From NCBI GenBank assembly GCA_964017185.1, contig OZ024872.1:45098188-45162187 (forward strand): DNA of 64,000 nucleotides, written 5' to 3'. The notes below the pieces were generated by a model. The model was not told the DNA's origin and ran no database searches. It worked only from the letters and a program-made list of their open reading frames with translations. The position numbers and the translations under genes are program-made. Origin of the DNA: Rugalucina vietnamica (Eukaryota > Mollusca > Bivalvia > Lucinida > Lucinidae). Below are positions 13,503 to 58,400 of this stretch, piece by piece; the first letter of the stretch is position 1, and the number at the start of each line of letters is the position of its first letter.

Positions 13503-13535
<33 letters not shown>

Positions 13536-16500
13536 AAAATCTGATCAAAATTGAAGACGCTGGAGGGGCCACAACACTAAAAATAGATTTTTCAAACATT
13601 CAAGGGCAGCTAACTCTGCAGTCCAGGGTCGAATCTGGCTCCAATTCAAACTCATCCAAGATGTTATCCTTGTTTCTTTCAAGAACGAAGAAGATCTGAT
13701 CAAAGTTGAAGGCGCTAGAGTGGCCACAATACAAAATATTGATTTTTCAAACACTAAAGGGCAGCTAACTCCGCAGTCAGAGGTCAGATCTGGCCGAAAT
13801 TCGAACTCATCCGAGATATTGTAGTTATTCTTGTTACCTGCAAGAATGAAGAAGATCCACTGAAAAAACAAACATGCTAGAGTGGCCACAACACAAAATA
13901 TGGATTTTTCAAACACTCAAGGGCAGATAACTCCGCAGTCAGAGGTCGTATCTGGTCGAAATTCCAACTCATCCAAGTTGTTATGGATGTCCTTGTTACT
14001 TCCAAGAATAAAGGAATCCGAATAAAAATGAAGGCGCAAGAGTGGCCACAACACTAAATATTGATTTTTCACACAGTCAAGGGCAGATAACTCTGCAGTC
14101 AAGGGTCGGATCTGGCTGAAATTCGAACTCATCCGAGATGTTATGGCTATCCTTGTTACTTCAAAGTATGAAGAAGATTCGATCAAAATTGAAAGCGCTA
14201 GAGTGGCCACAACACTAAATATTAATTTTTCAAACACTTAAGGGCAGATAACTCCGCAGTCAGAGGTTGGATCTGGTCGAAATTCGAACTCATCCGAGAT
14301 GTTACGAATGTCCTTGTTACTTCCAAGAATAAAGAAGATCCGGATAAAAATGAAGGCGCTAGAGTGGCCACAACACTAAATATTGATTTTTCAAACAGTC
14401 AAGGGCAGATAACTCTGCAGTCAAGGGTTGAATCTGGCTGAAATTCGAACTCATACGAGATGTTATGGCTATCCTTGTTACTTCCAAGTATGAAGAAGAT
14501 CCGATCAAAATTGAAGGCGCTAGAGTGGCCACAACACAAAATAATGATTTTTCATACACTCAAGGGCAGATTACTCCACAGTCAGAGGTCGGATCTCGCT
14601 GAAATTCGAAGCCATCTGAGATATTATGGTTGTCCTTGTTGCCTGCAAGAATGAAGAAGATCCAATGAAAAATAAAGGCGCTAGAGTGGCCACAACATTT
14701 TTCCCATTATAAGTCTATGGGGATTTTTCCAGACGCTCAAGGGCAGCTAACTCTGCAATCTGAGGTCGAACCTTGCCAAAATTCGAACTCATCCGAGATG
14801 TTATGGTTGTCCTTGTTACCTGCAAGAATGAAGAAGATCCATTCAAAAATGAAGTTGCTAGAGTGGCCACAACATTTTCCCCATTATAACTCAATGGGAG
14901 CTATCTGTTGCCATGGAAACCAGAGTTCTGATCCGACCTAGTCCAAAACCTAATGCAACCTTTCCCCCTCCTCAATGATGCTTCAGATAAAATTTGATTG
15001 CGATTGGCCTTGTTGTCTTAGAGATATTCAAGATTGAAAGTGTGAACGCACGGACGGACAGACAGACGGACGCCGGCTCGACTACCATACTACAAGCTCA
15101 CCTTGTGAGCCTTCGGCTCAGGTGAGCTAATAAAAGCAACTATATTACTCAGTTTGAAACTTTAGAACTTTACTGAAATAACTCTTAATCAACTGAAACC
15201 CAGATTTCTTCCAAAAGTTATGCTACCCATTATTTCAGATGAACAACATTATCAAGCTGACATTTGCAGTTTTCACATTATAGACACAACATTGGGTGCA
15301 GTTTTACATAAATATGGGCAGCAAAGAAATGGATTCAGCATCTATCAATTAATTATGTCAAATGAGACTTTTGATTCTTTGTTCCATTAACTGAACAAAT
15401 ATGCCAGACACTGCAAGTCATATGGAGACAATTATAAACACTGGTTTATCTATAAAATCTATAATAGTTTCCTTTTAACAAAAATATCCAGTACACAATC
15501 CCTACCTTTTGTTTCTGTTCAATCTGTGGCCCAATGTTGACCAGCGTGTCCTGCATAGTTCCAACTAGAGAGTTGGCCTCGGACAGCTTGAACAGACCAA
15601 CCAACAAACGATTCCTGTAGAACAGAGTATAATCATATGTGGTAAATAAGCTAATAATCTTAATAGCCAAATACACTGTTTAATTTTGCTACAAAATGAA
15701 TGTCACAACTCCTTGAAGGGAACTCTTTGAAGGGAAGTTAAATTTAATGATGTTGACCCACATCTGTTCAACCACATTGGAGAACAGGCTAGCTATGTTG
15801 GGCGATAGTACAGCAGTTGGCTGATCCTAGCTGGAGAGATACAACCAGAATAAGGTAAGTTCCTAACTTTTAGAAATTTAATTCAATGTAGTAAGAACAA
15901 ACCGATAAAAATGTTTTGGGGAAGTTTGAAATCAAATATCAATAATAACTGTTGTATTTTATCAATTTCACTTTAGCTTAATTTATTGAAAGACAAACTG
16001 AAGTTTTAAGTTAAATGTATCATATTAACCGTAATGTTGATTTGACAACTTCAATAGTAAAACAACATAGTCTTACTTATTATCCATGAAGGCTGTTTTG
16101 TTTTCCTTGAGGAGCCTAGAGTAGAGCCTGATCAGCTCCATGTAACTGCTGGGTGTAGAGTAATAGTGTCGCCTCATCTCCTGCCAATACTTGGAGGATA
16201 TCTCACCAATAGTCTTGTGGATTTCCACACAGGCTACACCTACTTTCTTCTTTAACTCCTACAACATAGATAAAATATAAATATTTCAAAGCTACAAAGT
16301 AAGCAAAGGTGCAATCAGAGCAGAATTCCTGTCCAAAAACCCAAGGAAGGAAACAACCAGGATCCAGTTGTTCAAAGCATCGTTAGCTTAACGATATCGT
16401 TAAGACATAAATTTGTTATTTTTAAAGCAAATATCAGCTAAAGTAACAAATACACTGTTATTTTTTGTTGAAAAAATGTGAGAATCCTTTGCAGTGCAAA

Positions 16501-31500: not shown

Positions 31501-34500
31501 AAACCTGTCTACCCACACTGACAGGGCTTCATAAATTCCTGATAAACTCAAATAATCCTGATAAACTCAAAACCAGAGGACCAATGGTCCTGTAAACGCT
31601 CACCTGAGTCTGCTGCATATACCAAAAAACATGTTTGAATATTATGGTATTTAACCCCAGTGCAGGGGCAGATGAAGCCCTTGGGCCGTTTTCTTTTTTC
31701 AGAATAATCAATATTCTGTCCATTTGCCAATTTCTTACTGGCTTTTCCCTTCAAATGACATTTTAACAGTTTTTCCCATTCAAATGCATGGGCAACCCAT
31801 GTTGACCTTGCCATAAACTTGGTCAAGGTCATCACAGGGTCATGATTTATATATACATTGTAGTACTATAGCCATGGATGCTTCACGCCAAGTTTCATTG
31901 AAGTCAATCTATTGGTTTCAGAGAAGAAGATATTTGAAGGGTTTTTACCATATATGGGCATGGCGGCCATCTTGGTCATGTGACCTAGATTATTAATATA
32001 TACATTGGTTCCCCCATCCTATAGATGCTTCACATAAAATTTGGCTTCAATTGGCCAAGTGGTTTTAGAGGAGAAGATGTTTGAATATTATGGTAATATT
32101 ATACAATTATTGACTTCAATGAGGTAGATATAAGGATTTATCTACCTGAAAAAGTGATATTCACCGAGGCCGGAGGCCGAGGTGAATATCACTTTTGAGG
32201 GTAGATAAATCCTTATACCTACCGAAATTGAAGTCAATAACTGTTTTGTTATATGACTTTTCAAGTGTTTTAATGTTTATCTTATAACAAATAAACAAAC
32301 AAAATCATATCAGATGTTCAAGAAGGCTAGACAGAGAGGAACAATTGATTATGATTGAAAGAGAATTTTGTTAGCTCTTAATAAAACATATATTATGGGT
32401 ACTCCCAAGAATCACCATGACGAGGCAATTCCAATGGGTACCAACAACATGGGTTCTTGTGAAAAAATAAACAAAATTATCACCAAATACACCTTATTAT
32501 CTAGTGCTTTGTTTACCTGTAATAAATAGTGTGTTACTGCAAAGCATGTAGATTTCATGAACTGAAATGAGTTCATGCTATTTATAGCTAACTGGCAGGT
32601 TTTAAACATAAACACCAAATCATGTCAATTTCATGAAGCCCATGTTGATTTCATGCTGGTGCTATTTTTGGGTACTCAGGAGCGTAATATAGACTTTGGA
32701 GGTTAATATAGAAAACCTGTCAAAATAATTAACCTCCAGGAACTGGTTTGATCTGGTTTTCATCAGTTTGGTCTGGTTTCAGAGAAATACAAGGATTTAT
32801 TAATACTAAATGATCCAATCAGGAGACAGGAATTCTTTCAGTCATATAACAAATATGTATATTGCCTCCAGGTGTGGGCATATGAGCCCTTAGGTCCATT
32901 TTTTTTTTCAGAATCATTAATATTTAGTCCTACTACCCATTTCCTGCAAGATTTTCACCTCAAATGACTTTTTAAAAGTTTTCCCAATTCCAATGCATTG
33001 GCGACCTATGTTGACCTTGTCTTAAAATAGGTCAAGGTCACCACAGGGTCATAATTTATATACACATTGTAGTACTTCAGCCATTGGTGCTTCATGCCAA
33101 GTTTCTTTGAAATTGGTCCACCAGATTCGGAGAAGATTTTTGAAGGGTTTTTACCTTATATGGGCATGGCAGCCATCTTGGTCCTGTGAACTAAATAATT
33201 TATATATACATTAATTCCCCCATTCAATAGATGCTTCACATTAAATTTGGCTTTGATTCGCCAAGCGGTTTCAGAGGAGAAGATGTTTGAATATTATGGT
33301 AATATACATGTATATTGCCCCGGGGTGGGGGGCACATGAGCCCCTGGGGTCCATTTTTTTCAGAATCATTAATATTCAGTCCTACTGCCCATTTCCTGCA
33401 AGACTTTCACTTTAAAGGGAAACATTACTATTTAATTCCCGCATATGATTTTCATGAAACTTCCTATGCTTTCAGATAATTGTATCCTTGGACTAAAATC
33501 AAAATAAAAGTGGGGAGTCACGGGCCTCGTTTCCATGGTATTAGAACTTTTTGGATGTTTCTCGTACATTTCAGAAAACCGCACTCGTAGCGGACATGCG
33601 TTTTAATATATATGTTATTACTGCAAAAACAACTTAAACACACAATGAGTGTTATTTTCTTACATTTTGGTACTATTTGCTCTTAAACTGAGGAGATTAC
33701 ATGCAAAATTAATTTTCCCGCCATCTTTTCAAACCTGGAAAAAGTATGTATTTTTGCGATATCTCCTAAACTAAGCATATGATTTTGATTAAATTGCACC
33801 AACACATAGGGAACGTGGTAACCATTTAAAAGTTCAAATAAAAAGTGGGGGTCACCGGATTGCGTTGGAAGATATAGAGAAAAAACGTTCAATATTCCCG
33901 CCTTTTTCGTTTTAACGCCAAACGTTGAACTGACGTCGCGTATATTTATGCGACGTCATCAACAGCGAAATAAACGTTTTCACATATAATTAACCTTATA
34001 CACGAATTGGGGTATAGCAGTTGCCACAGAACTTCTTTTAATAAAAATGAACAATATGTATACCCGCTTTAGGCCTTAATTATGCAGAAACAAACAGAAT
34101 AAGATTCTACAGCTTGCAACGTCATTGAGAAATCAAAACAAAACAATGTTAAAAACTACACGTAACATGCACATACTAAACGCCGACGTTGCGCAAACAG
34201 TGTGCTCATAGACAATAGTAATGTTTACCCTTAAATGACATTTTAAAAGTTTTCCCTATTCAAATGCATTGGCGACCTATGTTGACCTTGCCGTAAAAAA
34301 GGTCAAGGTCATCACAGGGTCATGATTTATATACACATTGTAGTACTTGAGCCATCGATGCTTCATGCCAAGTTTCTTTGAAATCGATCCACCGGTTCTG
34401 GAGAAGAAGATTTTTGAAGGGTTTTTACCATATATGGGCATTGCGGCCATCTTGGTCATGTGACCTGGATTATTTATATACACATTGATTACCCCTTCCT

Positions 34501-37500
34501 ATTGATGTTTCACATAAAATTTGGCTTTGATTGGCCAAGCGGTTTCAGAGGAGATGATGTTTGAATATTATGGTAATATACATGTATATTGCCCCGGGGT
34601 GGGGGCATATGAGCCCCTGGGGTCCAATTTTTTTCAGAATCATTAATATTCAGTCCTACTGCCCATTTCCTGCAAGACTTTCACTTTAAATGACATTTTA
34701 AAAGTTTTCCCCATTCAAATGCATTGGCGACCTATGTTGACCTTGCCGTAAAATAGGTCAAGGTCACCACAAGGTCATGATTTATATACACATTGTAGTA
34801 CTTGAGTCATCGATGCTTCATGCCAAGTTTCGTTGAAATCAGTCCACCGGTTCCGGAGAAGAAGATTTTTGAAGGGTTTTTCTCATATATGGGCATGGCG
34901 GCCATCTTGCTCATGTGACCTGGATTATTTATATACACATTGGTTCCCCCTTCCCATAGATGCTTCATGTAAAATTTGGCTTTGGTTGGCCAAGCGGTTT
35001 CAGAGAAGAAGATCTTTGAAAATGGTGGACGACGGACGGACGGACGACGGACGGACGGACGCCGGATCATGGCCATCCTATAAGCTCACCTTGTGAGCCT
35101 GACGGCTCAGGTGAGCTAATAATCCTGGTAAACTCAAATAACCCTGATGAACTCAAAATATTCCTGGTAAACTCAAAAAAATCCAGGTAAACTCAAATAA
35201 TCCTTGTAAACTCAAATAATCTTGATACACTCAAATAATCCTGAAACAATAAACTTTAACAATCCTGCCATTATGAAAACATGCCCATGCAATTTACAGA
35301 GATTTTTAAGTTGTAAAAAAGGAACATTTTCAATAGAAAATTTTTGATATTTTTCTTATTTTTGCTCAAAACATAGATTGTGCCAAGGGGGTTCTAACGA
35401 GTACCCACAATCTATGTTTTGGAGCAAAAATAAGAAAAATAGGTATACCCCTGCAAACCCCAGTTTTTCTATATAAAAGTGGGGTTCAAGGGGGTATACA
35501 TCACACGGACATGTGTTCCTGATGCTAACTCAACAGTGAACCAGCTTACTTAGCTTTCCATTTTTCAATAACTTCTTTCTTAATATCATCAATGTCTCTA
35601 CCAGAAGAGCCAGCACTGCTGACCGATGAGGCTCCACTTCCAGGACGTATATTTGTCATGTAAAGGACAACATCCCACAACGTCTCAAATTTCTCTTTTG
35701 CATTTGCTGACTTATCCCTCTTTCTTCTCTTTTTCGTCTTAAATCTATAGGTTTTTGGGAGTAAATAAACCTGTGTATGATCTACGATCCCCAAACCAGA
35801 CATGAAATAATTCTATACCACACTGTGCACAAAATATTGATATACAAGAAAAAAAAACAACATTGATAACATATAGAGACAAATACACACTACAAAACAA
35901 TATAATTTCCCGTGGTTTGTTTAAGGATGAACTTGACGTGATATAAAATGGGCTTCCAAATTAACCACTACCCTCTCATATATTCACAGACTTCAAAAAT
36001 ACCTTGCTTTTAGGCCTCATATTATGATTATAAATTGGTGTCCACTTCATTTTATGAAGCTGTGGCAAAGTGACTTTAAGCTAGAATACATAGAAATACA
36101 CATACACACATACACAAAAGAAGAGAAAGATTAAATCTGCATAACTTTGATACTGAGTGCAAGCAACCCAGTAAAATTCTAAACGAACAGATCAGAAGTG
36201 TTAGTTATTTTTATGCCAATAATCAGATCATTTATGAACATAATCCAAAATTATAGTAGAACAGAAGTACATATAAGTACATGTATACACACTAAAATAC
36301 AGTAATAAACAAAGTAATACTACCCCAGCCCAGTGATACCAACGATACTGTTAACACACACTCCCTATATGTGACCCCTTATTTACACACCACTGACCTA
36401 CCTGTAAGTTCACACAATATTGAGTCACTCAGTTTACACAATAATGACCTACATTGATGTTCACACGATGTTAACCTACCCTTTCCTGGCCTCTTGGGCC
36501 TGAAGCTCTCGTAGGGTGTCTAAACTTGATCCTACTTTACTAGTATAATGGCAAAAGAATTAACATTTGAGCCATCTCGTGGGAAAACCAACAATGTGGT
36601 TTCCGAACAGGTCCGACACAAACCGGGCTGTACAGCTACAGAAGCAGGATAGAAGCTTGAAATTTCGAATTTAGGTAGAAGAGGAATTGTACTATCCGAG
36701 TAGCGAAAACAAAGGCGCTGATCAGCTTCGCGTTTACCGCGAAGCTGATCTGCGTCTTTGTTTTCGCCTATGCAGATTGTTGGTTTTCCCATGAGGTGGC
36801 TCATTTTATAGCTTATTGTTTTCATAACACTTCAGCAGAAACACCATGTTGGTTCATTGGCATCTAATAAAGACAAGGCACTTAAAATTAGTGTTTTTGT
36901 TTGTTTGTTTGTATATTTTTTACATTACTGTAGATCCGGAAATATTCGCAGGAACTTAATTTTCATTAATATTCGCGAATTTGTTGCCTCGCGAATTCAA
37001 AGTTCTCACTAATAAAGAGTCACTATAAACTTTATAGAATACATGGACACTCACTCGCGAATTCAAGAACTCGCTAATAATTCGGAAATAGAAAATTCTC
37101 AAAATAAAAGTCACGCAAAAATTTCTGAATTTACAGTATTTTATGCTTGTTTCCTTTAAACCTTTGTTTACAGAAAATTCTGACCTGCAGCACGGCCTGG
37201 TCCTCATTTTTCTTGGTTTAACAAGTAAACCCTTCCTCCAACTGACCCAACAGGCGGATTTTAATGTTGCAGAGTAAATTACATCAATGTTCTTGTAAGT
37301 TCTTGTTTCTTCCTTGCATAAACGGTTACTACCCTTTAAATATATTTTTAATAATCCATTTCAATACTGAAAAAAAAATTGAATAAAACAATAAAGATAA
37401 TTTCCAAATACACACCTGACACTGGTAGCTGAAGATTTTGCCGACTGTTCTTCAATGGCGGACATCTCTTCCTTAATCTTGGGCTGTCTTCTAAATCCCC

Positions 37501-42400: not shown

Positions 42401-45400
42401 ATCCTGGAGTATTAAGTCATCATGAAATGACCTTGACCTAGAATACTCACACACCTTTACTGAAGTCATAAGTTGTCTGCATTTGCAAAATTTCAGGTCT
42501 CAGGCTGCAATATTTTCCAAACCCAGTGATTTATAAGAAAACCATAATTTTAATTTTGATATTTAAATGACTTTGGATCAAGGTCAAGAAATGACCTTGG
42601 CCTTCATTAATTACTTACCTTCATTGACGTCATTGGTTGTCTGCATCTAGCAACTTCCAGGTCTCAGACTGCAACAGTTTCCCAAATATCCATTGTTTTC
42701 GCCTTTTCCCATGTAAAAGCCTATGTTTCCAAAATTGACCTTGCCATAAAATAGGTCATGGTCATCCTATGGTCATCATTTGATCAAACTATGATGGGCT
42801 GGAATCCCAAATGCTACATACCAAGTTTCGCGAAAATCGGCCTGCCGGTTCTGGAGAAGAAAATTTTTGAGTGGTTTTTACCATATATGGGCGTGGCGGC
42901 CATCTTGGTCATGTGACCTGGATTTCCCGATCAAACTTTCGTCTCCCCTACCCATGGATGCTCCACATAAAATTTCACTTTGATTGGCCCAGCAGTTTCA
43001 GAGAAGAAGATCTTTGAAAAGTGTGAATGGACGACAGACTGGCCAAGGTCAAGAGATGACCTTGACCTAAATTAATCACAAACCTTCATCTACTCCATTA
43101 GTTGTTTGCATCTACCACTTTTCAAGCATCAGGCTGCAATAGTTTTCAAAAAATCCGTAGTTTTCACTTTTTCCCATGTAAAAGCCTATGTTTCCAAATT
43201 TGACCTTGCCGTAAAATAGGTCAAGGTCATCCAAGGGTCATCATTTTATCAAACTGATGGGCTGAAGTCCCCGATGCTACATACCAAGTTTCGTGGAAAT
43301 CAGCCCACCGGTTCTGGAGAAGAAGATTTTTGAAGGGTTTTTACCATATATGGGCGTGGCGGCCATCTTGGTCATGTGACCTGATTTTCGCGATCAAACT
43401 TGAAATGCCACTACCCAAGGAGGCTCCACATAAAATTTCAACTAGATCGGCCAAGCAGTTTTAGAGAAGAAGATCTTTGAAATTGTGGACGACGGACGCA
43501 CGACGGACGGACGGACGGACGCCGGATCATGGCCATCCTATAAGCTCACCGTGTGAGCCTTCAGCTCAGGTGAGCTAAAAATAGGTAAGTAAAACACAGA
43601 CACTGACTGTTGCCTTTCAGCTTTATGTGTGTTTCAATTTGAAAGCTTTTCCACATAGTCCAGTCTTTCTGAATTGATGCAAAATGTATTAAGCAAGGTA
43701 CTTTGAGGGTTGGCTGTAAAATAAACTTGTTGAAGTAAACATCTTCTGTCTGACAACCAGATTTTACATACAAAACAATTTCATGCATGATGGGAACTCA
43801 CTGCTTAAACTGTAAGAGTCCAAGTAAAATGGGATGCATAAAATAAATTAGATGCCTAATCAGATCAACTTAAAAGACTAAAAGCACATGTGCTTGAAGT
43901 TTTTCCCTTAAATCTTCCAAATGTCTAAGAGCAGTTCAGAGTTAATGTAGAAATACATTATGGAAAAAAATTAAGCTTCTCATTATTTTCCCCTCAAAGA
44001 TACAGAACAACACACAAAGCAAAGAAAATTCTGGTTACAAAAGCAACATGCATAAATGCACACAACATGTAACAAGACAGAAATCAGTAGTGGTCCTATT
44101 TTTTTAAAAAAGAAAATGCAGTCAGAAATAGAGCAAAATACAAGCAATATCATAAATAAAGACCAGCATATTTTGGAGGCAAATTCTTCTATTTGGACAA
44201 CTTGCATGACTTTTACAATGCCATCAGCAATTTTATAGTGAATCTAGACAGAAGACATTTTACAATATGTAAAATTTAAAAAAAATCTTCATTCAAAAAC
44301 AAGTTCTAATGAAGACTATCATGGATAAGTTGGAGAGTCTTGTATAGTCCATTACAAGAACATACCCATGCAATATACAGAGATTTTTATAAACAAAAAT
44401 TGAAAATTTCATTTGAAAATTTTTAATTTATTTTATACTTTACAGTGAAAACCAATGTATACCAAAACATGATACAGCCCCTTTCAATCGAAATTGCCGT
44501 TTGAGCATTTAGGTCAATCAAATTTGTTCACTCGAGTTTGCCGTTTGTTTGTAAATCAGGTAAATTTTTATTCTATTTTAGAACTGAAAAAGTGTCCCAG
44601 GTGCCAGGTGTTCTTAAAATCTATTCAGCATTTATCTTTAGGTAATGATGTCACCTCTTCTGATAAAAACATTGTAATTGCTTGGTTAAAGCACATTTTT
44701 ATTTCAAATTCTTTGCACAACTACACAATGCATATAAAGAACACACATTTGTAAAAAGATAGAGACAAAAACAGAATTCTATCAATTTAAGCAGTTACCT
44801 GATCGGTATGAGTACTGGCAAAAATTTCACATAGAAAGTTAAAATTTTCACTCGAGTTTGCCGTTTTTAAAGGTCATTTAGTTTGAAGCTGTCACTCAGA
44901 TCAGCAGATCAGTCGATCCAGATGTCTTTGAGGACAACATGAAAAGAAACTCAGATCTTCGGTACACATGGTCTTCTTGTGTGATGCAAATGCTCAAACA
45001 GAAAACTCGAGTGAAAGGGGCTGTAAAATTGATATTTTCATTGATATGAAATTTCACTGATATCAAATCTTACTGATATCAAAACTCACAAGTGACTAAT
45101 ATCAGCCTATATCTTTACTGTAGAAGAGGAACGACTTTTAGCATAAAATAAAAAGAAAATTTGCTTTTTTTTCAGTGAATACCAAAAATATTTTATCTCG
45201 TGAGTTGAAAACATAGATGAAATTTACTTTTTTGAGGTGAATACCAAATATATTTCATCGAGTGAGTTGAAAACATCAAAATTTTCACGAGTGCGTAGCA
45301 CGAGTGAAAATTTAGTTGTTTTCAAGTCACGAAATGAAATATATTTGGTATTTACCAATAAAAAGTAAATTTTCTTTTTATTTTACACAATACACGGGCA

Positions 45401-48400
45401 TGTTCCTATTCACAAAGCAGGCGGTGAAAATGCAAAAACCAAAATTTTTTGAAAACACAAATAATTTTGGTACCACATTGTTCCTAACGTTCTAACTAAG
45501 AAAATGAATACCCACACTTTATGTTTTTGTTTGTAAATAACGGAGTTATAGGCATTTGAATTTCTGAAGTGAGGCACATTTAATGATGTCAAGTAAATGG
45601 AAATGTCAGAAGTAATCCAAACTCTACAGTGAAAATATCGGCTGATATCAATCACTAGTGAAAATATCAATTCTGCAGTGAAAATATCCCTTTTATCCAT
45701 TTTTGATATACATTAATTTCACTGCTAAGTATAAAATAAATCATAATTTTCACTCGTGCTGCACACTCATAAAAAAAACTCACTCAATGAAATAAATTTG
45801 GTATTCATCTCAAAAAAGCAAATATCCTCTATATATTTAATATTTTTTGCTCAAAACACTGATTGTGAGTACATGTATGTTAGAACTGCCTTGCCCAGAT
45901 GGTTCTAACGAGTGCCCACAATCCTTGTTTTGGATCAGAAACAAGAACTAGAGGACCATTGGTCCTGTAGCTCACCTGAGATATTATCACATTGTAAGCT
46001 CATGAGATTTAAATTAATTGAGAATCGACCAATGAAAGTCTATGCATGGACACTACTGACCCCCAGGGCATGGCCAAATTTGACCCAGGGGCATGACTGG
46101 CACAATTTATAATGGGGACTACCAAACATTGCTACATACAAAATATAGAAGCTCTGGGCCTTTTGGTTTCAGAGTAGAAGATTTTTTTAGTTTTTCCCAT
46201 TGTAAGTCTATGGAGACTATCTACCCCCGGGGCGTGGCCAAATTTGACCCCAGGGGCATGGCTGGCACAATTTATGTAGAGGACCATTAGCCATTGCCAC
46301 ATACAAAATATCAAAGCTGTGTGCCCTGTGGTTTCAGAGAAGAAGATTTTTGAATTTTTTTCCCATAGCAAGTCTATTGAGACTATCAACCTCCAGGGCC
46401 TGGCCAAATTTGACCCCAGGGGCATGAATGGCACAATTTATGTAGAGGACCATTAGCCATTGCTACATACCAAATATCAAAGCTGTGGGCCTAGTGGTTT
46501 CAGAGAAGAAGATTTTTTTTAGTTTTTCCTATTGTAGGTCTATGGAGACTATCGACCCGCGGGGCGTTGCCAAATTTGACCCCGGGGACATGATTGGCAC
46601 AATTTATGTAGAGGACCATTAGCCATTGCCACATACAAAATCTCAAAGCTGTGGGCCCTGTGGTTTCAGAGAAGAAGATTTTTGAATTTTTTTCCCATAG
46701 TAAGTCTATGGAGACTATCAACCCCCGGGGCGTGGCCAAATTTGACCCCAGGGGCATGAATGGCATAATTTATGTAGAGGACCATTAGCCATTGCTACAT
46801 ACCAAATATCAAAGCTGTTGGCCTAGTGGTTTCAGAGAAGAAGATTTTTTTAGTTTTTTTCCTATTGTAGGTCTATAGAGACTATCGACCCCCGGGGCGT
46901 GGCCAAATTTGACCCCAGGGGCATGATTGGCATAATTTATGTAGAGGACCATTAGCCTTTGCCACATAAAATATATCAAAGCTGTGGGCCCTGTGGTTTC
47001 AGAGAAGAAGATTTTTTTAATTTTTTTCCCATAGTAAGTCTATGGAGACTATCAACCCCCGGGGCGTGGCCAAATTGGACCCCAGGGGCATGAATGGCAC
47101 AATTTATGTAGAGGACCATTAGCTATTGCTACATACCAAATATCAAAGCTGTGGGCCTAGTGGTTTCAGAGAAGAAGATTTTTTTAGTTTTTCCAATTGT
47201 AAGTCTATGGAGACTATCGACCCCCGGGGCCTAGACAAATTTGACCCCAGGGGCATGGCTGGCACAATTTATGTAGAGGACCATTAGCCATTGCCACATA
47301 CCAAATATCAAAGCTGTGGGCCCTGTGGTTTCAGAGAAGAAGATTTTTTAATTTTTTTCCCATAGTAAGTCTATGGAGACTATTGACCCCCGGGGCGTGG
47401 CCAAATTTGACCCCAGGGGCATGAATGGCACAATTTATGTAGAGGACCATTAGCCATTGCTACATACCAAATATCAAAGCTGTGGGCCTAGTGGTTTCAG
47501 AGAAGAAGATTTTTTTAGTTTTTCCCATTGAAAGTCTATGGAGACTATCGACCCCCGGGGCGTGGCCAAATTTGACCCCAGGGGCATGGCTGGCACAATT
47601 TATGTAGAGGACCATTAGCCATTGCCACATACAAAATATCAAAGCTGTGGGCCCTGTGGTTTCAGAGAAGAAGATTTTTGAATTTTTTTCCCATAGAAAG
47701 TCTATGGAGAGTATCGACCCCCGGGGCGTGGCCAAATTTGACCCCAGGGGCATGAATGGCACAATTTTTGTAGAGGACCATTAGCCATTGCTACATACCA
47801 TATATCAAAGCTGTGGGCCTAGTGGTTTCAGAGAAGAAGATTTTTTTAGTTTTTCCCATTGTAAGTCTATGGGACCTATCTGTTGCCATGGAAACCACAA
47901 TTTTGATACAATCTGCTCCAAAACCTAATGCCATCAATCCCCCAACCCAATTATGGTTCACATTAAATTTGATCAAGATCGGCCAACTAGCTTCAGAAAT
48001 ATTCTTCTTTGAAATTGTGGACGGACGACGACGACGACGGACGACGACGGACGACGACGACGACGGATGCCTGCCTATCCTATAAGCTCACCTGTGAGCC
48101 TTCGGCTCAGGTGAGCTAAAAATAGATATACCCCTATCAACCCCAGTTTAACTTTACTTGAAGCCAGTAAAAACGCAACTTTCAGCATACAACCTATCCA
48201 ACGACTCTTGGATATTTTCATAATGTTATTATATAAAATCATGAAATTGTCGTCCCGATATGAAGGCCATATTCGTCTTGTGCTAAATTAGCAAGTGAAG
48301 TAAAGCGATCTGCGTTTGTCGATTAAGGGACACAACTCAAACATGGACAAAACAAAAGCAAATTCACCTGATCAATCCAGCTATACGTTAACCTTTATGA

Positions 48401-49194: not shown

Positions 49195-49271
<77 letters not shown>

Positions 49272-49276
49272 GGTGG

Positions 49277-49338
<62 letters not shown>

Positions 49339-49354
49339 TTGATGATGATAACTG

Positions 49355-49437
<83 letters not shown>

Positions 49438-52400
49438 GCGCCAAGTTATGGACAATCCTGAATCACTTCACTGTGATTAAATCAATCAGAACATGCCTGC
49501 ACACAGACTTGAAGAAATATTATTTTTAAAGTTCATTCTTCCATGCAACATTATCATGCATGACAGTTCATGCCCATAGAATTTATACATGTACTTACTA
49601 TTGTTACTGGCTTCCAGAAAATTCTCTGTACATCATTAGAGGACAAATATTGAAATAAATAAATACAAAATCATCCCACCATAGCCACTGATGTATCATT
49701 CTGGACGAGCAGTACAAAAATTAAAACATCTATGTTTTGAATAGTAGAAAATCAAAAACTTTTACTGATGATATTAAACATTGATGATATATCTGTTTTA
49801 AAAGTTCAGTAAAATGGTATCCCCAAATCCTCAGACAGAAGTGCAAAACCAAACAATCATATCTAACAAATCACATCAGTGGTGCCCTGTGTATTTTTTT
49901 CTGATTATAATCAATACTTAGACAGGCAGAGAATAAAGCACACAGAAAAAACTTTGCTATGGCAGAAGCAATGCAAATGGCAAAATACAAATGCAAAAAT
50001 AAGCAAGAAAGTGAAATTGTGCAATTTTATATGTGTATAGGGTGAAATATGTGAAAATAGTAAATCCCGCATATAAACCATTGTTCCTAAAAACATGCAA
50101 ATTTAACCCTTCTCCTTTATTGAGTATTAACTTACGTTAATTATTCTTAATATTCTGCTACCAACCTGTTAGCAAGTTTATCTATTCAGTTTTATGAGAG
50201 TAAAAGCATATTGGCAACTAAAATATCATTTAGAGAACATTTTATAAGGATACCAAAACCTAACTAATTTAAACATTCTGCCTTTCTAATTCTTAAGATT
50301 AAATAAAGAAAAGAAAAACTGAACATCTACACCATCTATTTATGCATGTATTGAAACATTATAGAAATATATCTTATAGTTAAAACTGAAAATGTCAACA
50401 AAATATATTATTTACAAAATCACTGATAACACTAATTAAATGAAATATGGACCTATCGAACTTTCCTGGGTACCAATACTAAGTCTCTTCAAAAGAAACA
50501 AATATTTTACAGTTTCCTCTGAGGTTATACACAAACCATACTAGAAGATTGACTGCACTTTCAGTTTGGGAACCATAACAAATTTTGTTCAGTTCAGAAA
50601 GCAATAGATAGCACAAATGTGCCCTTAAAATTTGTATTTGGGGCACAATAACATATGACAAGTTTCCTTTGAAATTCTTATATATTTACAGCGAAATAGA
50701 TAACGATGTGTACTGCGTATGTACGCACGATTTTTTGCCCTGTACGCATAGAAATATCAGATCTGTGCGTACCATGTACGCAGTAAAAATCAGCGGTACG
50801 CAAACAGTTTACGATTTAATGCGTACACAGATAAAAATACCTTTAAAATTGTCACAAAATGACAATTTGTCAACTAGTATTGTGAGGCTTCTCTGTCAAC
50901 AATCGAAAAGTAGTTACAATATGAATGCAGCTTCTGATCGTTTCATATTACATACCATGCAATATATATATTATGTATCTTCAGTAGTTATACCATAAAC
51001 GTGTATTCCGTTCAGTGTCTGTTAACCAAATGTTTATTCATGAATTTATTAGTAGTGTGTCACTTTGGTTTATTGAATAGGCATTTTGCATCGATTTCTG
51101 GTCATATTTTTTTTAATTCAAACTTGATGTATTCCATGTTCTACAGCCATGCCAGTTATGTTTTTCCTCACTTTTGCTTTCTTATTATCTATACTGGATA
51201 CAAAAGTATGGTTTAACAAGCCTTCTATGACAGAATAACATGTAATTTTAGGATTATCAACCAGTTTACTTGAATTTTCATACTTGAATAAATGGTCTTA
51301 TCCATACGTGTGCATATCTATAAGTTTGATTCTGAATGAGAGGCTAGAATATGAACCTTCAGAAAACGCCTACACAGTAATATTGTCGGTACGCACTGTA
51401 CATTTATTCTGATGCGTACAGTACGCATTGCGAAAAATAATTATCTACATCACTGTATTTACATACCCTGGTGTGATCAGTCATCACTGAGCCTGAGGTA
51501 CTGGGTCGCGTATCATCTGAGTTGTGTTTAGACAGCTCCTTGGAGAACTTTCTCACCGCCATAGCAATAAGACCATCAGTCCAGTCGTAGGTCAGAGGAT
51601 CTGTCTCACCATATAGTTCACCAAGCTTCACACATTTTGGGTTGACAGTGAATACCTCACAGTGCCCTTTCTTGGCTCTGTTGTGCTGTAAATGAAAATG
51701 AGAAAATCTTGTTAACTTGTTTTTTTATTTCTTATTTCTTATATGCCAACAGGTGACAGAACCAACCAAATCAATATTTCATGATATTGTTTTAAAAACA
51801 GTGTGTGTCTATGAATTCAGGACATTAATATCCAGATTTGATAATCTCCCTCCTTCCTGAGCCATGATAGTAGGCAGCAACACCAAAGCCCTCTGTAGGA
51901 TACTTCTAACCGTAGTCTTCCCACACATGGTCTGGCCTATTAATATGCTACAATCTTTGACCATGATCTGATGGTACAGATGGTATATTAAATTCAACAC
52001 ACCACAAAAACAACAATCCCTTTCCCTCCTTTATCCTGTTCGTCATCCTGTGCTTTGAAAGTTGGCAGCAATACCAGCACCCTCTGTTGAATACTTCTGA
52101 CCACTGTCTTCCAACTGCCTATCTGTCCTATCAACATGACGCCATGTCAGACCATTATCTGACACAGGATTTTAAGCAACTTACCACAAAGACAGCCTTT
52201 CCCTTCCCTCTACCCTTCTGTTTATTATCTTCAGCTGTTAGAGTCGACAGCAACACCAAGGCTCTCTGAGTGTAGTCTTTCCACTGCCTGTAGGGCCCAC
52301 CAACACCATGCAGGGCCATAATCTGATTGTAGGTTGCTACATATCTAAGACTTAGATAAAATCCAACTTACCACAAACACAGCCTTTCCTTTCCCTCCTT

Positions 52401-55400
52401 CCTCCTGTTTATCGTCCTGAGCTGTGATGGTTGGCAATAACACCAAAGCCCGCTGTAAAATACTCCTGACTGTAGTCTTCCCGCCCCCTGTTGGGCCAAC
52501 CAACATGACACCATGCCGGACCATGATCTGATTGTACAGCTGCTTAACCTTCTCTATCTGATGAGGCCAGATCTGTAAGCTCTGCTCTCGTACAGACATT
52601 GATATGGCTTTCTGAAAAGAATAATTTTGGTTTGAATTTTAATCATAAATGGCTTATAATTTTGAGGATAGCATAGCTACATTTTGTATATTTATCTTTC
52701 AATGTCTGAATATCTTTTTTGGTAAAGCAATGTAAGAAAGTTGTATGACATACGTACATGGTAGTTATTTTCGTTTGATAGATATACTGTATCGAACAAT
52801 CCCATATCTGTTGAAGTATCGAATTTCCTTTTAGTAATGTGTTTAGCCCTCAAATTGTCATTAAATCCGATTCATTTCATGAAATTACAAGGTATGTGCC
52901 TAACTTATGCTAAACCTACAGAAATCTGGGACTCTAAGTACTTTTTTTGAATTGTTAAAATATGGAATCATCATGTAGTCGAACCTTCAAAGATCATACA
53001 TTAAAATATTTACTTTTTTAATGTAGGAAATAATCTTGCTTGCTTTTTCATTTTGAACTGAAACTAACATGAACCAATGCAAAGTTAATCATTCTGATGA
53101 TTCCAGAACAAAGTTGTCAATAATACCAACCTCCAACACGCCATGATCAGGGTCTGGTGGTTTGACCCCTGGGAACAGGTCAGCCAGGATACTCTCAAAC
53201 AGTGGTACATCCTCAGCCAGAAACTTAGGCAGATTGGCCTCTCTTAGGGAGTGGATAAGGATGAAAGATTCCTCTTTCTCTGTAAGCTTTTGTTTCATGG
53301 CATCAAACCTTCATTGGGGATGAAAAAAACAATAGTTTTTGCAATCAATTAAGATTCGATAGATTTGTTTAGGCTGACAGTAGTTATTTTATTCCAAAAA
53401 CTTCAAATCTGAGAAAAGTAAGTATTTTGCCTAAGTTTTAAGTAGATACAGCAATAATTTGTAAATTGCTTCACAAAGTAATACAAAAACTTTTATATGC
53501 CAAACAAAGAATTCTTACATTCTTGAGAAGACAATGAAGGCAGCAACTACAATCTAGCAAAAAGATATGAACAATGTAACCAGTAATCCATCAATTTCTT
53601 ACTTTTGTTGAGCCTGCAGTCTCCCATGGCCTGCCATAACTAACACTGACTTAATGGCTCTCATTCCAAAGTCATAGTGGTCCTGCTGAGACAGTTGTCG
53701 ACTCGCCAGCTGATACAGGTTCACAATCTTCCCTGACAGGGACTTGGCATCCTGGAAGCCCTCGGAGAACAACATGATCTCAGCGATTAGAGGGTAGTCA
53801 GGGACCATCATGGCAACTTGTCGGAACAGGGATTTGAGGTTGTCAGGTAGTTCTACTCGACCAGCATAGCTGCAGATAGATAAGTGTTTTATCATACATT
53901 TTTATCTATCATGCGTTTAGGAAAAAAATTACCTACCTCCCACTTTGAATGAAATCACTTTTACATAGGAAAGATTCAAATTTCATATCTCTATCCCCCA
54001 CAGTTTAACAAATATCCTTATACGCTGTTTTACAAAAAACAAAGGCGCAGATCAGCTGTGCAGTTTTCCCTACTCAAATAGTGCAATCCCTCTTCTTCTT
54101 AGCATGTTTCTGTGACTTTTTCAGGCCAGTTTGTGTCGAGCCTGGTCGGAAACCAGATTGTTGGTTTACTCACTCGTAAGGCTTAATTGTAATGAACCTT
54201 CTTCAAAAAGCCTTTATGTTTGTTTGTTTGTTTGTTTATTTGTTCTCCTTACCTGGGATTCATGGTGATGAAATATCCACAAGTAGCGTTCAGTTTGATA
54301 TCCTTCCCTTCAAACATGAACATCGGAGCATTGGCATCCTTAGCATTTTTGATGGTCAGAATCTGCTGGGCAACGACAGACAGAACTTCAAGGTCTATTC
54401 TGTTGAACTCGTCAAAGCAGCACCAGCTTCCAGACTGTGAGAGGCCAGAGAAGAACTTGCCCAGCATCTTGTAGTCAAGGCCCTCTGAACAGTTGAAGAC
54501 TACACACTGTTTACCCATGGCCTGCAAGAAAATTCTAAATGTTTTTTCTAAGGTTAGCCTAGTAAATTGGAAACAGATCAGACCTGAAAATTGCCCACCT
54601 TTGCTAAATCTTTGACTGCTGGTCCTGCAGTTGACCCTCCCAGATGCAGGTGTATAACACCTGTTAATGTCAGGTAACACCTGTCAGTCAGTCATGTTAC
54701 CAAAAGTCTCTTCAGTTAACTACATTGACCTACCTTAGCCAGATCCTTGACAGTTTCAGTTTTCCCTGTGCCTGCCGGTCCTGCAGGTGACCCTCCTAGG
54801 TGCAGGTGTAGGGCACCTGTCAGGGTTAGGTAACACCTGTCAGTCAGCTGTGTTACCAAAAGTCTCTTCAGTTAACTACATTGACCTACCTTAGCCAGAT
54901 CCTTGACAGTTTCAGTTTTCCCTGTGCCTGCCGGTCCTGCAGGTGACCCTCCTAGGTGCAGGTGTAGGACACCTGTCAGGGTTAGGTAACACCTGTCAGT
55001 CAGCTTTGTTACCAAAAGTCTCTTCAGTTAACTACATTGACCTACCTTAGCCAGATCATTGACAGTTTCAGTTTTCCTTGTGCCTGCTGGTCCTGCAGGT
55101 GACCCTCCTAGGTGCAGGTGTAGGGCACCTGTCAGGGTTAGGTAACACCTGTCAGTCAGCTGTGTTACCAAAAGTCTCTTCAGTTAACTACATTGACCTA
55201 CCTTAGCCAGATCCTTGACAGTTTCAGTTTTCCCTGTGCCTGTCGGTCCTGCAGGTGACCCTCCTAGGTGCAGGTGTAGGGCACCTGTCAGGGTTAGGTA
55301 ACACCTGTCAGTCAGCTATGTTACCAAAAGTCTCTTCAATTAACTACATTGACATACCTTAGCCAGATCCTTGACAGTTTCAGTTTTCCCTGTACCAGCT

Positions 55401-58400
55401 GGTCCTGCAGGTGACCCTCCTAGGTGCAGGTGTAGAGCACCTGTTAATGTCAGGTAACACCTGTCAGTCAGTGGTGTGATCACAAGCCTAGAGGAACAGC
55501 CCAGGTACTCGTAGCCATATAGGAAAGAGGCATTACTCTGGTAAACTTGGCAGTTATTGGTGGTCTCATCCCATTCATATCGCAGTTGCCTGCAAGAAAC
55601 ATTACGAAAACTTGTCCATGCAATAGACAGAGATTTTTTCAGCTGTAAAAAAAAAAGAAGGAAATTTCATCAGAAAAATCTTGATATTTTTCTTATTTTT
55701 GCTCCAAAACATAGAGTGTGGGTACTCCTTAGAACTGCCTCGGCAAATAGGTATACCCCTGCATACCCCATTTTTGCTATATAAAAGTGGGGTTCAATGG
55801 GGTATTCACTGCACGAACATGTTTTCCTGATGGGATGTCAAAATTTACAGGATTTCAATTTTGAAGTAAAATAACATTGAGAATAACAAACACAGAATAC
55901 ACTTTTCTTGCTCAAGCCTCTCTGATCTCTAAAGCTAAAGCTTAGGAAAAGTAACATGGAATTTCACTTTGAGTTGAAAAGAGTGACATAAAAAGAGCAA
56001 AAATCATCTCAGCTGCATTAAGTAGAGAGGATTGCTATAGCTTGGTTGAATTGTCATAACAAAAAAAAAAAGCACCATAGATTAAACTCAGCAACTTCTA
56101 TTTAGAATTTATTCATAATTTTTGTTCAAGTACATACTTTGTCCATTCGAAGTCATCCCTCTTGGTGACATCTTGGCTGATCATATTACTAATGATATCA
56201 CGACTGTGAACGTCAATGGTCAGCAACGCCTCTATACTCATGGTCTGATAAGCCGGCATGTTTCCCGACACTAGGCCCGCCAGGCTGCTCAGGTGATCTA
56301 TCATCTTGTCTTTGACCTCTACCAGGGCTGCTTTGGGGTCGGACTGGTCGAAAGCTCTCACCACATCCTTGTTGAACATAATCTGAGCCTGGAAACAGAA
56401 ATTGAGAATTTGCATTTAGGGCTGTTAAACAGTTTTGTAGACAGTGTCCAAAATTAAGCTGATTTTGGTAGTTAAAGCCATTTTCAAACAAGTCATTCAA
56501 TTTTTTGCATGTGAAAAAACAAATCCACTGCAAATGAGCCGCCTCATGAGAAAACCAACAATCTGCATAGGCGAAAACAAAGGCGCAGATCAGCTTCGCG
56601 GTAACCGCGAAGCTGATCAGCGCCTTTGTTTTCGCTACACGGATAGTACAATTCCTCTTCTACTTAAATCCGAAATTTCAAGCTTCTAGCCCTTTTCTGT
56701 TACTGTGCAGGCCGGTTTGTATCAGACCTGTTCGAAAACCACATTGTTGGTTTTCCCATGAGATGGCTCAAATATCAATGACATTTCATCAGCCCACCAT
56801 ATTTCTAGGATCTAGCAATTATCACATAAGCACTAGTATAGAAACACAAATGGCTTGAAAAATTTAGATACATATCATCAATATATTGCAAAACAAAATT
56901 AATCAGCATCTCAATGAAATAATACTTTACAGATAAAGCCAAATCAAAACCTGAGCTATGAGCGTTGTCTAACTACATGTGACCTGAATACAATTCACAC
57001 AAAAAAGTTGGTTTGTTTGGTGATTATAGAGCAGTTCACAATCAATACTTACCACTGTAAGAACAACTTGTCCAGGATGTTTGAGAACCCACTCCTTCAG
57101 ATCAATCCCTAGCCAGTCGGACAAACCTAGCTTCAGATGTCTGCAAAGAAACATCACAGCAGTTAAAAGGCAGCATCAAGACATCATGATTGAACAGGTT
57201 TTATAATAACACTTTATAATATTCAGTAGAAGGAGGGAAAACAGAATAAACAATCAACAACCATAGTGGTTTGACTTTTTACTGGAATGACATGTTTTGG
57301 TTGTTCTACAAACTTTTTCAACCTCAGGATATCATACATGTACACAATTTCTTGTACGTGTACTAAAAGATATGTTAGTGTAGTTTTCTGATGAATCATC
57401 TTTTGAGATATTTGATGGCTGCAAAGGAGATTAGTTTTGTACTGATACTACATGTATTTCAATCATGAAATAAACTTTTTATCATTATTACTCTCACTAT
57501 TACTTTCAAAAGAAGTAAGACAGCTAAGAAATAAAATCAAGGAGCAGACTTACTTTTTGACAGTTTCAAACATTCCACTTTCCACATTCAGTAGCCATCT
57601 TACCACTTCTCCTCTGGCCCGCACTTTCCTGCAAGGTAAAAACCAATGTAAAGATGTAAATCTAGCACAAAATAAGATATATGTTTACAAAAAGCAAAGT
57701 ATGTCTGAGGTCTTCATGAATTTTATCTTAACTGGTTTGAACAAAACAAAACATGCACCAAAAATAACATTTGCAAATTACCAATTCAAACGATCAAATT
57801 TAAAATAACCAATGACAAACTTTGCTATTAAGTTCCATGGATGAAACAGAAATTCAAACAAAGTCAAAGATAACCAAGACAGAGTTACCTTCCCATCGGT
57901 ACCACTTCTCCCTCAGCTGACATCATTGACATCACAGTGGGCTGTTGCCGTGGCAACTGTTTGATCTCTAAGGACTTGATGTTGCCAAAACACTTCCCAA
58001 GGTGGGGCTGAAATGAGAAGGAAAGGTGTCTATTTCTATGCTTACAGAATTCCATGGTGAGTCAAGTAATCTATCAAGAAACATTTTATAGATTTCAGAA
58101 AGTAGCAAAGTGTTAGTTACATTTGTTTCTGAACTAAGGATAGGAATAAAATCTCAGGATTTTCATCTCAAAATCACCAGCATATCATTTTTTTCTAAAG
58201 AAAATTTCCTTGTTTTGTGACTTAACAAAGCCGCTGAAATACATATTCATCATTTATGAAGGAAACTGTTTTGGCCTTAAATGTTGGGGAAACTGCACCA
58301 TAAGCTATGATAGTGAAAACAAATATGATATATATTCAGTGTGCACGGTTTTATTATCACTGAAGTGAATATATATATGATAGATGATGTGAATTTCAAA

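Follow-up and report, generated by a model that had tools for sequence, protein, structure and literature searches.

Results

We analyzed a 64,000-nucleotide stretch of the Rugalucina vietnamica genome (GenBank assembly GCA_964017185.1, contig OZ024872.1; C4:45098188-45162187), hereafter the window, which is crossed on the minus strand by a gene for an axonemal dynein heavy chain of the DNAH6 class. The two exons that encode the AAA1 and AAA2 P-loops of this motor are each followed by a tandem array of partial copies of themselves, and the older copies in both arrays have changed mostly at silent sites. The gene was identified by Pfam and PDB matches: the AAA1 region matches AAA_6, "Hydrolytic ATP binding site of dynein motor region" (E 4.5e-76), the stalk region matches MT (E 4.4e-21), and the top PDB match for the AAA1 region is DNAH6 (E 6e-72). 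The gene is a relative of DNAH6, possibly DNAH14; judged by eye, a locus on C17 looks closer to DNAH6 than the window gene does. The exon peptides used below (n = 40) were chosen by eye between 61.4 kb and 8.0 kb of the window, with some exons missed, and peptide e07, which matched as two adjoining pieces, was counted as one place. The genome searched comprised 1.09 Gb in 47 contigs.

The AAA1 P-loop exon (232 nt, 55358..55589, minus strand, as are all exons and copies described here) is supported by the PDB match to DNAH6, the Pfam match to AAA_6 and its splice sites, namely the acceptor TTTCTTGCAG and the donor AAG/GTATGT (a slash marks the junction). The next exon (54253..54521), with the acceptor TTTTCTTGCAG, is supported by its exon peptide and splice sites. 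Within the intron between them, the last 114 nt of the AAA1 exon (B1, 55358..55471), the template of the copies, are repeated from 55315, 55159, 55003 and 54847 in an exact 156-bp register, and a divergent copy beginning at 54691 lies beyond them. Tandem repeats finder (TRF) reported a period of 156, 5.5 copies and 94% matches (score 1495), and self-alignment of the window gave the same spacing, so the array is far beyond chance. Together with the alignment of the units, these results bear out the preliminary description of this DNA, which, from the letters alone, had recognized the gene, its AAA1 P-loop exon, the 156-bp register and amplification in situ, and had counted four copies of the 3' half of the exon with its donor, followed by a decayed fifth.

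The four regular copies, B2 to B5, all keep a stop-free 114-nt frame and the donor GTAGGT, and three of them (B2, B4 and B5) retain the P-loop motif GxxGTGKT, in agreement with the earlier count. B2 (55202..55315) carries an Ala to Thr change beside the P-loop; B3 (55046..55159) has Gly to Arg, as already noticed, and Lys to Asn changes within it; B4 (54890..55003) has an Ala to Val change upstream of it; and the 38 residues of B5 (54734..54847) are identical to those of the exon. The old, divergent copy B6 (54599..54691), with the donor GTGGGC, has undergone an in-frame loss of 21 nt that removes the P-loop residues GTGKTET, and it runs into the rest of the intron. The sequence separating the copies had been described as a 42-bp spacer. 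Its length is correct, but only part of it is spacer: in the first (55316..55357), the donor GTATGT and approximately 24 nt of intron are followed by 18 nt that resemble the codons preceding the copied segment in the exon (11-12 of 18 matching; as good a match was obtained in 24 and 43 of 20,000 shuffles for the two spacers tested). The amplified unit therefore consists of ~132 nt of exon and ~24 nt of intron.

The AAA2 P-loop exon (GPTGGGKTT; 52372..52611; donor GTG/GTAAGT), supported by its exon peptide and splice sites, is likewise followed by an array, here of three older and decayed partial copies (52331-51845) that are 79% (c2), 73% (c3) and 62% (c4) identical to the exon over the aligned columns. 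Copy c2 (52162..52331) has losses of 5 and 13 nt and keeps the donor GTAAGT; c3 (51977..52161) has an in-frame TGA, a Gly to Trp change in the P-loop and the donor GTGTGT; and c4 (51845..51976), the most divergent, has lost its 3' end. Both arrays are built alike, with the 3' part of the exon and a donor in each and a gap of about 23-42 nt.

How common are such arrays? Extra copies within the window were found for 2 of the 40 exon peptides, those of the AAA1 and AAA2 P-loop exons, and the remaining 38, including the AAA3 and AAA4 peptides (29134 and 17948), have none there. At the other dynein-like loci of the genome, no same-strand copy occurred within 1.5 kb on each side of any of 19 exon matches (15 AAA1, 4 AAA2); the 15 AAA1 matches come from 17 other places, two of which had no locus. 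A genome-wide DNA search with the AAA1 array, which ranks the best candidates only, returned five other places at 72-82% identity among these candidates and none above 82%, and the nearest exon protein from elsewhere has 73% identity; the 38 residues encoded by the array, in contrast, are nearly those of the exon. In the case of AAA2, the genome was queried with the protein of the exon only. A living paralogue was considered as the source of the AAA1 array, and none was found in the genome searches.

The substitution patterns differ between young and old copies. Over 114 nt, the exon and B5 differ by eight silent changes and no replacement, whereas the differences among B2-B5 comprise four replacements and one silent change (Fisher 0.007, calculated by hand). 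In a codon model, the tips of B2-B5 have an omega (dN/dS) of ~2, which is not different from 1; these copies thus look young and neutral, with no sign of constraint since their origin, and to this extent the neutral expansion proposed in the preliminary description holds. It does not extend to the older copies. In positions 37-114, B6 has an omega of 0.08 (twice the log-likelihood difference, 2dlnL, 9.4 against omega 1), and the stem of B2-B5, over all 114 nt, has an omega of 0 (2dlnL 14 against omega 1). On the AAA2 copy branches, omega is about 0.32, and fixing it at 1, i.e., assuming that the copies were dead since birth, costs 9.9 units of 2dlnL. Among 400 null simulations for AAA2, none reached 9.9 with an omega below 1 and one had an omega so low; the largest 2dlnL, 12.0, was accompanied by an omega above 1. 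The dead-since-birth model loses 7.5-15 units under the alternative tree shapes tried, whether or not a clock was imposed, and it is rejected in both arrays even when the exon lineage has a free rate. Moreover, replacement divergence between the exon and c2 is ~1/10 of silent divergence (hand-corrected counts), whereas copies dead since birth are predicted to show at least 1/2. Jointly, the AAA2 copies, as well as B6, therefore depart from the omega of 1 since duplication that marks a neutral pseudogene, while the B2-B5 tips fit it; purifying selection would have acted on the old copies in the past and shows no trace in the young ones, and c2 and c3 are now broken. Because their changes are mainly silent, the old copies (B6 and c2-c4) probably went through a period in which they were translated.

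The working AAA1 exon itself may have a composite origin. Thirteen sites separate B6 from all four array copies alike; at the 5 leftmost of these (positions 21-36) the exon goes with B6 and at the next 8 with the array, and a single switch point across 13 sites has a chance of 1 in 1287 (calculated by hand). It is likely, though not certain, that the exon is a mosaic of a B6-like and a B2-B5-like lineage, and sequence was therefore probably exchanged between the exon and the array.

Another important question is how a copy could enter a transcript. The splice scores given here come from a scoring matrix of which several of the picked sites are doubtful. Each of B1-B6 contains AG/GT tetramers after nt 11 and nt 31, so that AG/GT recurs at the same place in tandem units, the pattern described for AGGT intron gain. 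Joining the exon to any of B2-B5 from AG/GT to AG/GT (at 11 or 31) would leave the length of the product normal, with the two joined exon pieces encoding 166 residues; a swap with B5 would leave the protein identical, and one with B6 would make it seven residues shorter. Most copies could thus replace the normal exon half. The acceptor at AG/GT 31 scores 7.1 in the array against 5.4 in the exon, a gain due to silent changes, and the median of the predicted acceptors of the gene is 7.3. Considered as candidate mutually exclusive exons, the copies have strong donors and weak to middling acceptors. The earlier suggestion that several GTAGGT donors compete with the true one is correct in that they are present in B2-B5, but they would not add an isoform: an exon ended at the donor of a copy with no other splicing would read VCQCS and then terminate, codon 83 of its translation being a stop, and use of these donors alone would lower output.

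Introns at corresponding places seem to occur in other dynein genes of this genome. In five other dynein loci (L019, L024, L025, L026 and L027), an intron seems, by eye from the sequence, to lie exactly after unit nt 11, at the first AG/G, although in L024 the donor could alternatively sit four nt further on; at the C13 locus, also by eye, an intron lies two nt from the second AG/GT. The AAA1 P-loop introns of L019, L024-L027, L018, L023 and L028 seem to occupy several spots within ~30 nt, near 6, 20 and 33 besides nt 11, while the window gene and L008-L011, L016, L017 and L021 match straight through the region. The five loci make it attractive to regard the copies as ancient separate exons later fused by intron loss; this origin was rejected because the copies carry 18 nt of the upstream part of the exon and so derive from an already fused exon. 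Two further candidates were set aside. For slippage driven by a hairpin, the evidence is suggestive at most: the 114-nt DNA folds slightly better than its shuffles (z -1.3 for B1 and -1.9 for B2), and the two exon pieces beside it gave z values of +1.4 and +0.8. A conveyor, in which the copies are dated snapshots of the exon, was modeled and rejected with copies at omega 1; a codon test restricted to the copies does not assess this model fairly and is given no weight here.

The window contains other repeats and one other coding sequence. A 166-bp tandem array of 11 copies (46046-47880) lies in a large intron of the dynein gene, and a 161/177-bp array of about 8 copies lies at 13535-14898; their periods are similar to that of the exon array, and neither matches it in self-comparison. 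Direct repeats of ~455-463 bp, mostly 83-93% alike, occur between dynein exons (31666-35023 and 42579-43482), and a dispersed ~240-bp repeat (56531-56773, with a near-palindromic core at 56571-56635) recurs in at least 15 other places of the window in both orientations. An ATG/CAT trinucleotide tract of 243 bp (49195-49437) is open in all three minus-strand frames. On the plus strand, near the window start, an open reading frame of ~271 codons (1259-2074) matches the rhodopsin-type seven-transmembrane receptor family (7tm_1, E 2.6e-20).

Discussion

On balance, we favor an explanation in which parts of two P-loop exons underwent tandem duplication with birth and death of copies that are now mostly spliced out and of which the old ones were probably once translated. 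A segment running from inside the exon, past its 3' end and to ~24 nt into the intron would have been duplicated head to tail and then re-amplified; unequal exchange or slippage during replication would be the mechanism. By splice logic, the first donor, that of the exon itself, would normally end the exon, so that removal of the intron takes the array with it and the protein stays as it was. Copies would age, die and be replaced, with B2-B5 representing the young stage and B6 and c2-c4 the old one, and exon and array would exchange sequence. For AAA1, the likeliest route to translation would be splicing from AG/GT to AG/GT, in which the exon half is swapped for a copy and length is kept.

Several observations weigh against parts of this account. 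The codon tests rest on small samples, 38 and 55 codons. In the pairwise comparison of the exon with c4, rejection of the dead-since-birth model is weak or absent (p 0.035, 0.064 and 0.078 under three codon-frequency settings). The stem of B2-B5 has zero length within positions 37-114 and is uninformative there, and the constraint seen on it comes from a short patch that recombination may have introduced. As to the mosaic, two sites varying among the array copies were left out of the count, and adding them breaks the order; position 35 is array-like in the exon despite lying to the left of the B6-like position 36, and at position 72 the exon has the base shared by B6 and B3. The AG/GT donors score 4.5 and 5.5 (13th and 34th percentile of the predicted donors of the gene) against 9.0 for the donor of the exon. 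In AAA2, an AG/GT pair for replacing the exon half was not seen by eye; the proposed route to past translation therefore works, on sequence, for AAA1 only.

Could the old copies have been preserved without ever having been translated from this gene? If both arrays were purely neutral and their copies dead from birth, the silent bias would be a matter of chance, arising from limited sample size, from saturation or from tracts exchanged with divergent alleles. The neutral evolution of B2-B5, the indels and the stop that break c2 and c3, AAA2 silent sites close to saturation and the weak pairwise test for c4 agree with this, as does the mosaic look of the exon, since allele exchange may occur; we nevertheless regard it as a lesser possibility, given the rejection of the dead-since-birth model in both arrays and the low replacement divergence between the exon and c2. 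Somewhat more doubtful still is that the old copies came by recombination from another functional gene copy, such as a lost paralogue or a very divergent haplotype. This would explain the silent bias with no alternative splicing and would suit both the mosaic look of the exon and the junction of B6 with an intron start that, by eye, does not look like the spacer, but the searches described above point the other way, with no locus beyond 82% identity among the best candidates for the AAA1 array and 73% identity for the nearest exon protein from elsewhere, against a near match of the array to the 38 residues of the exon. That the arrays are assembly artefacts is very improbable: tandem arrays are prone to misassembly, but three of the four young copies have private differences, and there are two unrelated arrays, each shorter than 1 kb and within the span of one long read.

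A related issue is whether the copies are used now. The first part of the exon could be spliced through AG/GT to any one of B2-B5, so that full-length motors differing slightly in the AAA1 P-loop would be made side by side. Every such product would be in frame and of normal length, the array acceptor at AG/GT 31 scores near the median of the gene, five other dynein loci seem to have an intron at the first AG/G, and introns gained through duplication of an AGGT segment are on record (PMC4974935). With weak donors standing beside a strong constitutive one, no sign of constraint on B2-B5 since their origin and a broken P-loop in B3, we consider this improbable; more generally, since the young copies are neutral and the donors weak, present use of the copies is to be doubted. 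Very improbable, too, is the single cassette envisaged in the preliminary description, in which one copy follows the exon and inserts 38 residues with a second P-loop. An AG does stand at the start of each of B2-B5 and the frame is kept, with introns of 198, 354 and 510 nt before B3-B5, but the acceptors are pyrimidine-poor and weak (1.1-5.5 against the median of 7.3), the intron before B2 would be very short at 42 nt, and a strand, the P-loop and a helix from the core of an AAA+ fold would be duplicated inside AAA1. The AG/GT route would be the better way to use a copy. A stronger form of the favored explanation, to which we give little credence, is that reservoirs of interchangeable P-loop exon halves are kept, or were kept until recently, behind the first two ATPase exons, to be spliced in, for AAA1 through AG/GT pairs at a point where sister genes seem to have an intron, and to exchange sequence with the working exon.

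The components of this picture are already known: the tandem-duplication model of intron origin (PMC4974935) and tandem exon substitution (PMC9741552). In the former, the cases include ATP2A1 and fission-yeast genes in which an intron spans four 24-bp duplicates, and the predicted splicing from exon to copy at AG/GT corresponds to intron origin by tandem duplication as proposed by Rogers. As in these cases, the duplication lies inside a gene, an AG/GT in each unit bounds a possible intron that would leave the peptide unchanged, and several units stand head to tail; as in a potato case (PMC4974935), the unit crosses an intron-exon boundary. Unlike in these cases, the AAA1 unit extends past the 3' end of the exon and includes a donor, which makes each half able to serve as the end of the exon; the original donor remains strong, splicing across copies is predicted from sequence logic, and two arrays occur in one gene, both on P-loop exons. 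Like tandemly duplicated, mutually exclusive exons (PMC9741552), the copies are homologous, and most would give a product of the same length; unlike them, their acceptors are putative, the working copy is fused to the upstream exon half, and the young copies are unconstrained.

A further comparison is with the pseudogene arrays of partial exons left by unequal exchange. The arrays resemble these in decay, in copy number and in the frameshifts and stops of the old copies and differ from them in the coding-constrained history of those copies.

Literature searches that paired dynein heavy chains with tandem exon duplication, or DNAH14 with molluscs and dynein heavy chains, gave no match; for mutually exclusive exons in axonemal dynein heavy chains the only match concerned cancer, and partial exon duplication gave only an unrelated one. 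As far as these searches show, the occurrence in a single motor gene of two P-loop exon arrays that probably had a coding past is new.

Conclusions

To judge from PMC4974935, the passage of tandem duplications to introns or alternative exons has mostly been inferred from old, finished cases. The R. vietnamica gene shows several stages together: neutral young copies, a mosaic-looking exon and old copies that were probably once coding, at the site of an apparent intron in sister genes. If the copies are used, the main ATPase loop of the motor would be variable within one gene, and we know of no dynein for which this is the case. Should the arrays be reservoirs of exon halves, one locus would yield motors that differ in the ATP-binding loop of AAA1 (and formerly of AAA2) but not in its length, perhaps including one form, from B6, that lacks the AAA1 P-loop core.

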